A stretch of DNA of 64,000 nt, taken from assembly GCF_947498515.1 (NCBI RefSeq), contig NZ_CANMKO010000004.1, positions 62,001 through 126,000 on the forward strand. The letters are read 5' to 3'. Under the pieces are notes generated by a model, which had not been told where the DNA came from, made no database searches, and saw nothing but the letters and a program-made list of their open reading frames with translations. The DNA comes from an uncultured Pelagimonas sp. (GTDB lineage Bacteria; Pseudomonadota; Alphaproteobacteria; Rhodobacterales; Rhodobacteraceae). Of this stretch, positions 1-3,005 are shown in pieces; position 1 is the stretch's first letter; every line of letters begins with the position of its first letter. Both the position numbers and the translations under genes were made by a program.

Positions 1-271
1 CCAAGGCGGTGGTATCACGCGGCCAAAACCCGTCGTCGCCATAGGTGCGGCCAAGATGGCGAATGATGGCCGCACTTTCAAAAACCGTCACAGCTCCGTC
101 TTGCAACACCGGGATCAATCCATTGGGGTTCATCGCCAAGAATTCCGCGCTGTCCAATCCGCCAAAACCCTCGCCAACATCGCGACGATCAACCTCAAGC
201 CCGAGCTCAGTCACACTCCACATGACCGCCTGTACGTTTGACGAGGTCGCCCGCCCCCAAACGGTCATCAT
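1..271 (-). CDS. Glutathione S-transferase, N-terminal part (cut by window edge)
   Basis: The minus strand is open from an ATG pair at 271/268 to the window edge, about 90 codons. The translation starts MMTVWGRATSSNVQAV and contains NPNGLIPVLQDG followed by FESAAIIRHL. This is the thioredoxin-like N-terminal domain of cytosolic glutathione S-transferases: the cis-proline segment NPNGLIPVL, then the glutathione-binding E-S pair. Family members conjugate or reduce substrates with glutathione. AGGAC lies just upstream and suits the ATG at 268 best. The gene is downstream of betC on the same strand, but a strong hairpin lies between them, so co-transcription is doubtful. The C-terminal helical domain, which sets substrate choice, lies outside the window. 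Confidence 0.85.
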   Translation of the reverse strand, partial: MMTVWGRATSSNVQAVMWSVTELGLEVDRRDVGEGFGGLDSAEFLAMNPNGLIPVLQDGAVTVFESAAIIRHLGRTYGDDGFWPRDTTAL

Positions 272-292
272 GTCCTGCCCTCACCCACCAAT

Positions 293-341
293 GCCGCTTT
301 GAGGCGTCGGGGTGGGTGGGTGGGCGGCGCGTCAAAGCGGC
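293..341. repeat. 10-bp inverted repeat with G-quadruplex motif in its loop
   Basis: GCCGCTTTGA (293-302) and TCAAAGCGGC (332-341) are perfect inverted repeats. The loop holds GGGGTGGGTGGGTGGG (309-324) on the plus strand: four G-runs with single-T loops. It sits between the betC stop (360) and the GST start (271), so it may stop betI-betC transcription, but neither side has a T-tract, so it is not a standard rho-independent terminator. Confidence 0.7.
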
Positions 342-359
342 GGCACAACCTCTCCATGC

Positions 360-1865
360 TCACTCACCCCTCGGAAAGCGCTTGTTCTCTTCGAGATCGT
401 TCAAATCCATGTGGTTGCGCATATAGCGCTCGGAGGCCTTTTGCAGCGGTTGATAATCCCAAGGGTAATACCCACCTCGCCGCAAGGCGTCATAGACCAC
501 CAATCGGCGTGCCTGTGACTGACGGACCTCTGCATCAAATTGCGCTAGGTCCCAGCGTTTCTCGGCCTTGGCCCGCATCGCTTCCAACGTTCCGGCATGG
601 GCCGGGTTATCGGCTAGATTGGTTAACTCATGCGGGTCAATATCCAAATCGAAAAGCTGTTCAGGGTCAAGCGAACAAGCGGTGTATTTCCATTTCCCAT
701 ATCGCAAGCACACCAAAGGCGCATAAGATGCCTCCGCAGCATACTCCATCGCAACCGGGGCCGTGCGTTCGGAACCATTCATCACTGGTAAAAGGTTTTC
801 GCCACTGGTCCAGGGCGCGACCTCCCCCATATCCGCCTCGGCCAAGGCGGCAAGCGTAGGACATAGGTCAATGGTGGACACCGGCGCGTCAATCTTTTTC
901 CCCTCCCCACCGGGCAAGGCAATCATCATCGGTACCCGCGCCGATCCCTCAAAGAACGACATCTTGTACCACAACCCACGCTCTCCGAGCATATCTCCAT
1001 GGTCCGACACAAAGACCACAACCGCCTCCTGGCGAGTCTCTTCCAACACCGCCAACAACTCACCTACCTTGTCATCCAAATAGGAGATATTGGCGAAATA
1101 GGCGCGCCGGGCACGGCGAATATCTTCGGAGCTGACATCAAAAGAGCGCCAGTCATTGGCGTCAAAAATACGCTTAGAATGCGGGTCGTGGTTGTCATAG
1201 CCCATTGATGGAACCTCAGGTTCCAGATGCGGGCAATCCTCATAGAGGTCCCAATACTTCTTGCGTGCCACATAGGGATCATGCGGGTGGGTAAAGCTCG
1301 CTGTGACACACCAAGGCCGATCATCCAAACCGCGCGCAAGATCATAAAGCTTCATCTTGACGAAATGCGCGACCTCGTCGTCATATTCCATCTGGTTGCT
1401 GATCTCAGCCACCCCTGCCCCGGTGACCGACCCCATATTGTGGTACCACCAATCAATTCGCTCGCCTGGCTTGCGGTAATCCGGGGTCCAACCGAAATCG
1501 GCGGGGTAAATGTCGGTGGTCAGGCGTTCTTCGAACCCGTGCAACTGATCCGGCCCGACAAAATGCATCTTGCCAGAAAGGCACGTGTAATACCCCGCCC
1601 GGCGCAGATGATGTGCATAGGTTGGAATGTCGCTGGCGAACTCAGCCGCATTATCATAGACGCGCGTCTGGCTTGGCAATTGCCCCGACATAAAGCTTGC
1701 CCGCCCCGGCGCGCAAAGCGGGCTTGCTGTGTAGCTGTTCACGAAACGGGTCGAACGCGCTGCCAAAGCCTTAAGATTTGGGGCATGTAGCCAGTCGGCG
1801 GGACCATCGGGAAACAGCGTTCCGTTCAACTGGTCCACCATGATGATCAAGATATTCGGACTCAT
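360..1865 (-). CDS. betC: Choline-sulfatase
   Basis: This 501-residue type I sulfatase is predicted to hydrolyse choline-O-sulfate to choline and sulfate, feeding glycine betaine synthesis. The formylglycine motif is Cys51-Ala-Pro-Gly-Arg55, with metal and active-site residues at Asp11, Lys99/His101 (GKMHF), His193/His195 (THPHDP) and Asp288-His289 (SDHGD). The C-terminus has the tail typical of choline sulfatases (YYPWDYQP, then RYMRNH), which separates it from generic sulfatases. Its start overlaps the betI stop by four bases (ATGA), so the two are translationally coupled. No signal peptide is seen, consistent with a cytoplasmic enzyme. betB and betA do not follow; a GST gene does. Confidence 0.92.
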   Translation of the reverse strand: MSPNILIIMVDQLNGTLFPDGPADWLHAPNLKALAARSTRFVNSYTASPLCAPGRASFMSGQLPSQTRVYDNAAEFASDIPTYAHHLRRAGYYTCLSGKMHFVGPDQLHGFEERLTTDIYPADFGWTPDYRKPGERIDWWYHNMGSVTGAGVAEISNQMEYDDEVAHFVKMKLYDLARGLDDRPWCVTASFTHPHDPYVARKKYWDLYEDCPHLEPEVPSMGYDNHDPHSKRIFDANDWRSFDVSSEDIRRARRAYFANISYLDDKVGELLAVLEETRQEAVVVFVSDHGDMLGERGLWYKMSFFEGSARVPMMIALPGGEGKKIDAPVSTIDLCPTLAALAEADMGEVAPWTSGENLLPVMNGSERTAPVAMEYAAEASYAPLVCLRYGKWKYTACSLDPEQLFDLDIDPHELTNLADNPAHAGTLEAMRAKAEKRWDLAQFDAEVRQSQARRLVVYDALRRGGYYPWDYQPLQKASERYMRNHMDLNDLEENKRFPRGE

Positions 1866-2434
1866 GCCGATGCCTCCCCGATCAGGGCGTGTCCAACGGC
1901 TTTGACTTGCTCTGCCGCGCCGGACATATCGCCATTGTTCAATGCAGCGCGCAGATAGACCCCGTCGATTTGGGCCGCGATAATCCGCGCCGTCGACTGA
2001 GGGTTAGAACACCGGCCCCGCAACGCATGCACCAGGTTGCTGTGCAATCGTCTTTGGTAAATGTGCAAAAGCCGGGCTGCATCCTTGTCGCGTTGCGCAA
2101 AGCTATAGAAGTTGAGCCAAGCCGATACCGCCGCAGGGTCAAAACAATTCGGGTCAAAACTTCCATCGATGATGGCTTCTAGCCGTCTACCCGGTTGCGC
2201 ACATGCCAAGGCTGCGCGCACATCGCGTGAATATTCATTAAGGATATGGCGCATCGCTGCCAGAAAAATCTGGGCTTTGCCGCCAAAGTAATGGTGGGCC
2301 AAGGCGCTCGACATTCCGGCGCGTTTGGCGATTTGACCAACGGTCACCTCAAGCGATCCAGCGGCCCCGATCTCTTCGACCGTGGCTGCGACCAAGGCGG
2401 CGCGTCTTTTGGGTTCTTGTCCAATCTTAGGCAT
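1862..2434 (-). CDS. betI: TetR-family repressor BetI
   Basis: This 190-residue TetR-type regulator starts MPKIGQEPKRR, the characteristic BetI N-terminus, followed by the helix-turn-helix ITVGQIAKRAGMSSALAHHYF-type segment at about residues 28-48. In known bet operons BetI represses choline and betaine genes and is released by choline. An upstream in-frame start would place codons inside the palindrome at 2454-2471, so the ATG at 2434 is preferred. It is followed by betC with a 4-bp overlap. The order betI-betC matches the start of rhizobial betICBA operons. Confidence 0.92.
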   Translation of the reverse strand: MPKIGQEPKRRAALVAATVEEIGAAGSLEVTVGQIAKRAGMSSALAHHYFGGKAQIFLAAMRHILNEYSRDVRAALACAQPGRRLEAIIDGSFDPNCFDPAAVSAWLNFYSFAQRDKDAARLLHIYQRRLHSNLVHALRGRCSNPQSTARIIAAQIDGVYLRAALNNGDMSGAAEQVKAVGHALIGEASA

Positions 2435-2453
2435 ACAAGAATTGCTGCCGGTT

Positions 2454-2471
2454 ATTGACTGACAAGTCAAT
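2454..2471. promoter_or_regulatory. Probable BetI operator
   Basis: ATTGACTGACAAGTCAAT is a perfect 7-bp inverted repeat with a 4-bp spacer, 20 bp upstream of the betI start. The TTGA...TCAA half-site arrangement is like reported BetI sites. Autoregulation of betI-betC is inferred from position. Confidence 0.75.
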
Positions 2472-2693
2472 CAAAATCCAACGGCAGCTTTGGACAGCCC
2501 ATGCACACCTCACAACAAGCTGAAAGGCGCGTCGTAAAACATTGTCAAAGGGTCGCTTCCTGAACGCATTCCCAAAAATTCAGGCGCTCCCATGGCTGGC
2601 TCAGCTTGGGCCAACTCTGATCTGGCCACACGGCCAGCATCTCTTTTGTGCGCACGACTCGCGCGCATGTCTCCGGCCCAATAAGGCCGCAGC

Positions 2694-2891
2694 TTACATT
2701 TCAAACGTTCCTAGAACTTTGTTCTGTGGAAGGCGCGCAACTTCGACACCATCGTTTGTGCGACGCAGATTGTAGCCATAGCCACGCATCCGGAAACGCC
2801 ACTCTGCTTCGGAAAGCACTTTGGCACGTTCTTTGAGCAAGAAGGCCTCGATCTCGGTCATACTCTCGGTCAATTTATTCTCCGCAAACAT
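2694..2891 (-). CDS. Small conserved-looking hypothetical protein
   Basis: A 65-residue charged soluble protein starting MFAENKLTESMTEIEAFL. GGAG lies 6-9 bp upstream of the ATG at 2891, which is why this start is chosen over the one 12 bases earlier. The first half looks like an amphipathic helix (TEIEAFLLKERAKVLSEAEWRFRMRG), the second half basic and polar. No domain recognised and no partner gene obvious: betI lies downstream on the same strand across a gap of about 260 bases that holds only the BetI operator and a short CTGGCC/GGCCAG dyad at 2622-2637. Confidence 0.6.
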   Translation of the reverse strand: MFAENKLTESMTEIEAFLLKERAKVLSEAEWRFRMRGYGYNLRRTNDGVEVARLPQNKVLGTFEM

Positions 2892-3005
2892 TTGTTTCTC
2901 CATCGTTCACGTTAACTTCTGATGGTTGACAAATTGCTTAGGGATTTGGGCACAAGTGCGGCCAATACATGGATTTTTAACGAAATGGAGACAATAGGCC
3001 CAAGA

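Follow-up and report, generated by a model that had tools for sequence, protein, structure and literature searches.

The locus behind betC

The window, by which we mean the whole stretch of 64,000 nucleotides analysed here, comes from an uncultured Pelagimonas sp. (genome G000; its two congeners are G001 and G002). Near its left edge lie betI, betC and gst, all on the minus strand, with a hairpin in the spacer between betC and gst. Gene order in the genome is betI, betC, the element, gst, betB, a second element and betA; gst thus lies downstream of the first element, its start 18 nt behind the end of the match to covariance model R1. The features are as follows.

290-344, minus strand: whole element, matched by model R1 with 68.4 bits and an E-value of 1.4e-12 in the whole genome; in genome coordinates G000:C4:62290-62344, the C-loop strand being the minus strand, which is the coding strand of betC
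332-341: outer stem, 5' arm on the minus strand, perfect over 10 bp
293-302: outer stem, 3' arm on the minus strand
304-309: inner stem, pairing with 325-330 in the predicted fold
325-330: inner stem partner, pairing with 304-309
310-324, plus strand: loop with four G3 runs and single-T spacers, a predicted quadruplex within the closed stem
360-1865, minus strand: betC, choline-sulfatase (TIGR03417), with its stop codon 15 nt before the start of the model
2-271, minus strand: gst, glutathione S-transferase family, truncated at the edge of the window; the whole gene encodes 213 aa
1862-2434, minus strand: betI, TetR-type/BetI-type repressor, upstream of betC, its start codon as called by computer

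The sequence GCCGCTTTGA at 293-302 has its exact reverse complement, TCAAAGCGGC, at 332-341, and GGGGTGGGTGGGTGGG at 309-324, which reads GGGG(TGGG)3 on the plus strand, is sited in the loop of this hairpin. A preliminary description had reported four G-runs with single-T loops inside a 10-bp inverted repeat; its sequence and coordinates are correct and the repeat arms are exact, but the hairpin is longer than it claimed. In the fold predicted for the plus strand without a quadruplex term, 16 pairs form, namely the outer 10, a mismatch at 303/331 and an inner 6, and they close a 15-nt loop at 310-324, GGGTGGGTGGGTGGG (GGG T GGG T GGG T GGG), which reads CCCACCCACCCACCC on the minus strand. One inner pair, T307/G327, is a wobble on the plus strand and an A.C mismatch on the minus strand. 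The G-run strand is, as had been noted, the template strand for betC, betI and gst.

The motif (GGGN)3GGG occurred in 9 of 200 first-order Markov resamples of the window and was enclosed by a perfect stem of at least 10 bp in 0 of 200; the real window has one such motif, and it is enclosed. This resampling, together with the copies found elsewhere, rules out a chance origin. Membership of a known Rfam family was rejected, since 4227 models returned no match in window positions 1-3000 at E-values up to 1. As RNA, the 88-nt betC-gst spacer folds no better than its shuffles (z -0.73 and -0.79). The reason is that, when no quadruplex term is used, the C-rich loop is paired with sequence preceding gst, and the comparison weighs neither for nor against the element. 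The alternative pairing lies in the minus-strand RNA of window 272-324, where GGUGGGUGAGGG, immediately ahead of the gst start, is a second possible partner for the C-rich loop; this pairing belongs to the minimum free energy fold, which is itself not better than shuffles.

A dispersed family in Rhodobacterales

Relatives of betC were present in 39 of 61 genomes. Among 26 betC downstream regions, 25 were readable, and the same design was recognized by eye in four, those of G000, G001, G002 and G004, the last being of another genus, with the C-rich loop kept and a different stem. The model search added a fifth copy beside betC, that of G112, which is flanked by betC (86% identity) and betB (84%). 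The preliminary description had proposed to search Rhodobacterales for the motif at the betC 3' end and had named a lack of G-run conservation in close relatives as one half of its own refutation. The motif was found at that position in these five genomes and at many unrelated loci, and the four-run loop is kept behind betC in both congeners, G004 and G112, with the first run reduced to GCC in G001. The further suggestion of a device setting GST levels relative to betI-betC did not survive: the gene after betC is betB in G002, G004 and G112, three of the five genomes that carry the element at this position, and elsewhere copies are found next to dapB, ispH, agmatinase, ccmI/ruvX and other genes.

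DNA searches gave additional copies at loci away from betC. Model R1 was built from 18 copies, including the betC copy of G000, drawn from 21 loci already filtered for pairing; they align without gaps over 55 columns, and all 16 stem pairs change on both sides among them, a figure that is partly circular as the copies were chosen for pairing. At E-values up to 0.01, R1 finds at least 9 copies in G000, 13 in G001, 7 in G002, 2 each in G004 and G007, 8 in G112, 23 in G122, 3 in G138, 44 in G096, 90 in G063, 31 in G020, 15 in G078, 8 in G090 and 5 in G103. All these counts are lower bounds: about 28-30 candidates per genome were scored in searches of more than 40 genomes, which used stricter filters, and 150 per genome in searches of few genomes.

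In a draw from the family Rhodobacteraceae, 40 of 198 genomes had a match at E-values up to 1e-4 under the stricter filters, while in a class-wide draw of 190 genomes G000 alone matched (0 of 189 others). An exact 21-base loop pattern, sought in 84,980 genomes, matched at least 30 stretches, all titled Rhodobacterales, Rhodobacteraceae or genera placed there, the genera of the remaining titles being ones that we take to be members of this order or family. A literature search confined to open-access papers, with subscription journals outside its scope, found no description of such elements. Judged by these sequence comparisons, the betC hairpin is one copy of a dispersed, non-coding element family of some marine and related Rhodobacterales.

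The copies of G000 adjoin betC, gst, betB, betA, dapB, ispH, LysE, an M20 peptidase gene and agmatinase, ccmI and ruvX, an aldo/keto reductase gene, thrS, UDG, an aspartate/ornithine carbamoyltransferase gene, a DUF1674 gene and some genes without a match, and no shared functional theme was seen among them. Sites shared between species are betC, betB/betA, dapB, ispH, thrS, UDG/carbamoyltransferase, ccmI/ruvX, aldo/keto reductase and agmatinase. The second G000 copy of the bet region, at G000:C4:60090-60145 (L117:2591-2646), lies 1.9 kb past the left edge of the window, between betB and betA and in the same orientation as the betC copy; this site is also occupied in G001, in G002 and at loci L253 (Thalassobius) and L263. 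Separately, long poly-C/G runs occur in the draft genomes G070 (C14), G077 (C4), G150 (C50) and G156 (C114); real or an assembly artefact, they inflate counts of C-run motifs.

Covarying stems around a nearly fixed loop

Two tests of pairing are cleaner than the 18 model copies. In the first, loci were picked by the 21-base loop pattern only, and 29 of 30 could be read outward (one lay at an edge; several coincide with places in other sampled genomes). All 29 had at least 9 of the next 12 pairs, a level reached by 197 of 812 combinations when arms were swapped between copies, and the mean number of pairs was 11.2 of 12 for real arms and 6.9 for swapped ones. The second used the agmatinase site, represented by 10 loci with 9 distinct sequences; nine loci were assigned by a tblastn match to agmatinase or came from G000, and the tenth, where the locus ends, by the M20 peptidase gene on its other side. 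Here 12 of 20 pairs change on both sides, and 0 of 500 shuffles scored as high. At this site the element lies 3-7 nt before the agmatinase match (L116, L143, L250, L255, L259, L264, L265, L267, L271 and L272), and its 3' arm has an invariant AAA and a nearly invariant GG, which could be part of a ribosome-binding site.

For the loop, 129 of 176 aligned matches were kept, the other 47 being gapped or having under 10 C at the 12 C positions of the loop, and removal of near-identical stems reduced the 129 to 77 non-redundant copies. In these, the twelve C positions deviate in 6 cells, the spacers on the C strand consist of A or G and seldom of T, and four intact runs are present in 72 of 77 after the prior loop filter; as the model was itself trained on such loops, weaker ones could have been missed. 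The pattern points very strongly to a lineage-specific hairpin whose stems covary around a nearly fixed 15-nt loop holding four G3/C3 runs.

Stem sequences differ between the copies of G000-G002 and mostly differ in G122, and are partly alike in G063 and G096. Such likeness, with near-identical stems in both of the latter genomes and three G096 copies sharing both flanks, suits a passive or mobile repeat that spread by transposition or slippage, serves no function in the cell and survives only where its orientation spares it from deletion during replication. We regard this explanation as very unlikely: the stems differ between the loci of G000-G002 while pairing and loop are kept, and pairing kept at orthologous sites of several genera needs selection. 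In G063, stretches L196-L211 hold many copies with one common stem sequence, some at both ends of a convergent gap and several followed directly by a second short hairpin. The G096 copies that share near-identical stems and both flanks are C1:72430, C1:442138 and C9:81272; a further one, C1:684241, shares the stem and the upstream flank only, and the group resembles a longer dispersed repeat.

Position relative to genes

Gene context was recorded for 135 of 137 places, 67 of the 137 from a search of eight genomes and 70 from the copies listed for other genomes; places were chosen for lying in or near retrieved stretches, and a few weaker matches there were left out. The upstream gene is read in the sense of the C-loop strand at 102 of the 135 and in the opposite sense at 27, five copies lie inside called genes, and one has no upstream gene. 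Copies lie a median of 18 nt from the sense stop, 85 of 130 have one within 60 nt, and between convergent genes the sense stop is the nearer in 43 of 52 cases (medians 22 versus 83 nt). Genomes differ in this respect, since 28 of 35 copies in G063 lie no more than 60 nt from a sense stop and 16 of 26 in G096 have no stop codon of any kind within 60 nt. Where neighbouring genes are co-oriented, 20 of 49 copies lie in gaps of less than 150 nt, for example betC/gst and M20 peptidase/agmatinase.

The closeness to sense stops, also in G063, which has no clear replication polarity, speaks for a gene-end signal read in sense. The element would then be an unconventional terminator or a 3'-protecting hairpin of the preceding gene, made either by the C-loop RNA hairpin or, as the preliminary description had it, by a G4-hairpin on the template strand, and its orientation would be limited to co-directional genes as the reverse harms replication. 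Against this stand the copies in tight gene pairs and those divergent or antisense positions that are kept in two to four species (ccmI/ruvX, thrS, UDG/carbamoyltransferase). A template-strand block is further weakened by an E. coli study reporting that (G3T)8 forms no quadruplex on transcription with the G-rich strand as template (PMC7023247). Tails argue in the same direction: among 56 copies with a sense gene upstream, outside G063 and G096, the C strand has its own T-tail in one and the G strand in none, so that 55 of 56 lack it on the sense side, and base counts in the 10-nt flanks of 80 copies revealed no T run. An ordinary terminator was rejected on these missing tails, and a sense signal of the unconventional kind appears somewhat unlikely.

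Neighbouring terminators were also compared. Where genes converge, the opposite gene has a T-tailed hairpin ahead of the element in 1 of 19 gaps, as against 19 of 66 control gaps, and a separate sense T-tailed hairpin is equally scarce (also 1 of 19 versus 19 of 66), the latter a point in favour of the sense signal. Gaps between co-oriented genes do not differ from controls in this respect (5 of 37 with a separate sense T-tailed hairpin, 17 of 127 controls). In convergent gaps the element thus behaves as if it were able to stand in for the terminator of either direction. Two further copies, at G000:C5:239997 and G000:C6:268830, lie in the leaders of thrS and of the aspartate/ornithine carbamoyltransferase gene with the G-run in gene sense, and have orthologues in G001, G002 or G112.

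The strand probably kept foldable

Stem mismatches were counted on the C strand of the 77 non-redundant ungapped copies, with the third pair excluded. A.C mismatches number 38 and G.T mismatches 4 (binomial p 5.7e-8), and an A.C on the C strand is a G.T or G.U wobble on the opposite strand. Every gene context shows the bias in this direction, and so do 11 of 12 groups of origin; in the twelfth neither mismatch type occurs. Both detection, which favoured G.T on the C strand, and leading-strand skew, which would favour C to T there, run against the A.C excess. When both types are allowed alike, ordinary gene-end hairpins have G.T 50 and A.C 35 in G001, 33 and 27 in G096, and 13 and 15 in G063. 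When the strong ordinary hairpins of G096 are all read on the leading strand, G.T outnumbers A.C, the opposite of the elements: those lying on the leading strand have G.T 6 and A.C 1, and those on the lagging strand, counted in gene sense, G.T 2 and A.C 12.

Folding predictions with a quadruplex term place stem and quadruplex together on the G strand in 75 of 77 copies, and for plain RNA hairpins the predicted stability of the G strand exceeds that of the C strand in 73 of 77, a preference that the passive-repeat explanation can also claim. From sequence, then, selection seems to preserve the ability of the G-run strand to fold, although the A.C excess could have a mutational cause. For a sense signal the bias is awkward, as A.C mismatches weaken exactly the sense RNA hairpin.

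Orientation relative to replication

As genes disturb local GC skew in 5-kb stretches, this measure was replaced by a transcription-corrected skew. The C-loop strand has a positive corrected replication skew in 81 of 87 copies of six genomes (26 of 29 in G000-G002, 7 of 8 in G112, 22 of 23 in G122 and 26 of 27 in G096), and where the value exceeds two standard errors the count is 69 versus 3. The G-skewed strand is probably the leading strand. Since orthologous copies share ancestry, these counts are not independent events, and no combined probability was calculated. The six exceptions are the ccmI/ruvX copies of G000 and G001, G001:C1:155142, the betC copy of G112, G122:C31:47023 and G096:C1:419202. 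The notion that the ccmI/ruvX copies, antisense to both genes, keep the replication orientation was dropped, as their corrected skew is negative in G000 and G001.

In other genomes the rule is less uniform. With the same skew, G020 gives 4 of 5 and G004, G007 and G138 together 4:3, and G063 gives 22:14 for 36 copies, following gene sense but not replication. Copies in the rpoB region of G096 and G020 are on the rpoB strand, which is taken as leading. On the three main contigs of G096 the copies are one-stranded (13 of 13, 13 of 13 and 9 of 9, among 37 listed of at least 44), so that 192 of 192 within-contig pairs, from 35 of the 37 listed copies, share a strand; the corresponding figure for G063 is 47 of 98 among 68 listed copies. 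All 12 G096 copies with an upstream gene on the opposite strand are still in leading orientation. For G001 the contig-strand test is weak alone (1959 of 20000 random draws as high), because its contigs cross skew switches; skew sampled along the two large contigs matches 11 of 12 copies and is zero at C2:5274.

This orientation does not follow from gene strand, a cause rejected because, in the 14 of 20 G001 stretches with clear skew, 131 genes lie on the G-rich strand and 135 on its complement. Of the non-element hairpins that follow stop codons in G001, 47 are leading, 49 lagging and 33 undetermined, and by a second definition gene-end hairpins are 28 leading and 37 lagging in G001, 20 and 41 in G096, and 11 and 11 in G063. 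A general strand constraint on quadruplexes was likewise discarded, other G4 motifs in the same stretches not being oriented like the elements: coding motifs are leading:lagging 10:2 in G001, 25:6 in G096, 23:13 in G063 and 5:3 in G122, and intergenic ones 4:4 in G096 and 7:7 in G063, while the G-runs of the elements are lagging:leading 24:1 in G096 and 20:1 in G122.

These observations bear most directly on a polar replication or segregation signal acting at the DNA level, in which the hairpin would become single-stranded on one fork template and be read by a replisome, segregation or repair protein (KOPS and Chi are read as double strands). The 81 of 87, the one-stranded G096 contigs, the 12 G096 copies oriented against their upstream gene and the lack of a comparable leading preference in other gene-end hairpins (47:49 in G001, 20:41 in G096) all favour it. 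Its difficulties are that a chromosome carries some tens of copies at most (at least 9 in G000), that the short distance to sense stops is left unexplained, that G063 has many copies and no orientation rule, that the ccmI/ruvX copies of G000 and G001 are exceptions, and that the leading template, on which foldability seems to be kept, would rarely be single-stranded. We consider such a signal decidedly unlikely. The passive repeat gains a point here, as the E. coli study describes more frequent deletion of hairpins on the lagging template (PMC7023247).

A possible one-way barrier to RNA polymerase

Three facts have to be joined: the sense placement behind genes, the foldable G strand and, in most genomes, a direction fixed relative to the fork. 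A sense terminator explains the first and a fork signal the third, whereas a structure formed on head-on transcription could explain all three, together with the copies in tight gene pairs. Tentatively, then, we infer that the element may be a polar G-strand structure that halts RNA polymerase from one side. Of the readings considered this is the likeliest, slightly ahead of the sense gene-end signal, though at less than even odds. Its working form would be the G-run strand folded as a hairpin with a quadruplex in the loop, arising when RNA polymerase crosses the element head-on to replication, as only then is the G strand displaced and non-template and the RNA G-rich. Co-directional transcription, with C-rich RNA and a G-rich template, would pass freely, and antisense, head-on transcription would be stopped before it enters the adjoining gene. 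In the window, betC would be read on into gst-betB, and polymerase would be kept from entering the betC 3' end.

Counted for the barrier are the selection on stems with covariation and intact G-runs, the 38 to 4 excess of A.C on the C strand, which would make the G strand the working strand, the orientation of 81 of 87 copies with the rpoB-strand copies of G096 and G020, and the placement behind sense stops (102 of 135, median 18 nt). Transparency to sense reading is suggested by the 20 of 49 co-oriented copies in short gaps, and a head-on role by the scarcity of T-tailed hairpins of the opposite gene (1 of 19 versus 19 of 66). In E. coli, according to the study cited above, (G3T)4 and (G3T)8 form quadruplexes upon transcription with G-rich RNA, and (G3T)8 is about 350 times less mutable with the G-rich strand as template (PMC7023247). 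The same study also holds a point against the barrier, in that replication direction had little effect on (G3T)n stability (PMC7023247). Further points against it are the weak polarity of G063 (22:14) and of G004/G007/G138 (4:3), the exceptional ccmI/ruvX copies (G000, G001) and G112 betC copy, the equal rarity of sense T-tailed hairpins, which suits a sense terminator as well, the possibly mutational origin of the A.C excess and the shared ancestry of related copies. Protection of gene ends would moreover not be the whole story, given the 27 of 135 copies with an opposite upstream gene and the 16 of 26 in G096 near no stop codon.

That these elements form a class of replication-oriented one-way valves for RNA polymerase, presenting an RNA/DNA quadruplex only to head-on transcription, is an unlikely proposition. 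If true, leading-strand genes would be protected against antisense transcription, and neither co-directional transcription nor replication would be impeded. The case for bacterial quadruplexes has usually been made for single promoters; in this family selection seems to have run the experiment in several genera, with a nearly invariant quadruplex loop in a covarying stem and, in most genomes examined, a single direction relative to the fork. Cultured Pelagimonas phthalicica would allow tests of whether RNA polymerase can be blocked in vivo from one direction by a G4-hairpin, and of whether bacteria use dedicated sequence elements to restrain head-on transcription. Genome annotation gains a new and readily searched family.

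Comparison with known systems

The preliminary interpretation is, as a whole, partly supported; the element family, its covarying stems and its replication orientation go beyond it. Among known systems, terminators, REP elements and KOPS/AIMS each have at least one defining feature that the element lacks. Intrinsic terminators resemble it as GC-rich hairpins close behind stop codons in gene sense. They differ from it in that the element has no T-tail, has a fixed 15-nt loop, occurs in tight gene pairs and is oriented with replication, unlike the unoriented ordinary gene-end hairpins of G001.

REP/BIME elements, which go with RAYT (Y1) transposases, are dispersed extragenic palindromes, as is the present element; in most genomes, however, its loop is fixed and its stem free, its copies are few, and it is replication-oriented. 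Of the 40 family genomes with the element, 4 have the Y1_Tnp domain, as do 14 of the other 158 if both draws of 198 genomes are taken to be the same; none was found in G000. This distribution also tells against a passive repeat. Identity with RAYT/REP was rejected on this absence of co-occurrence with Y1 genes and because the stem sequence is not conserved among copies in G000-G002.

KOPS and AIMS (Architecture IMparting Sequences) are polar relative to replication, and orientation with the replication arms is likewise seen for the element in six genomes (81 of 87). KOPS and AIMS are numerous 8-bp motifs that require no hairpin, and the KOPS of E. coli are G-rich. The element is not a short, structure-free double-strand motif in many copies: it has tens of copies at most (9 counted in G000 and, as the highest count, 90 in G063), keeps its pairing and carries its G-runs on the other strand.

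Quadruplex-forming sequences provide the remaining comparisons, one of them from Paracoccus denitrificans, which we take to be an alphaproteobacterium of the same order as the element's hosts. The G-quadruplex of its nasT promoter is a single site of other sequence, 150 nt upstream of the gene, and the text describes it without the word hairpin (PMC5123632). The dispersed G-quadruplex repeats of Xanthomonas and Nostoc, tandem arrays of GGGAATC, are like the element intergenic, G4-forming and near the 5' gene; those of Xanthomonas lie a mean of 28 nt from the 5' neighbouring gene and differ from the element in having no leading/lagging preference (PMC4692102). The feature common to G-quadruplexes, four G-runs of at least three with short loops, is present in 72 of the 77 loop-filtered copies.
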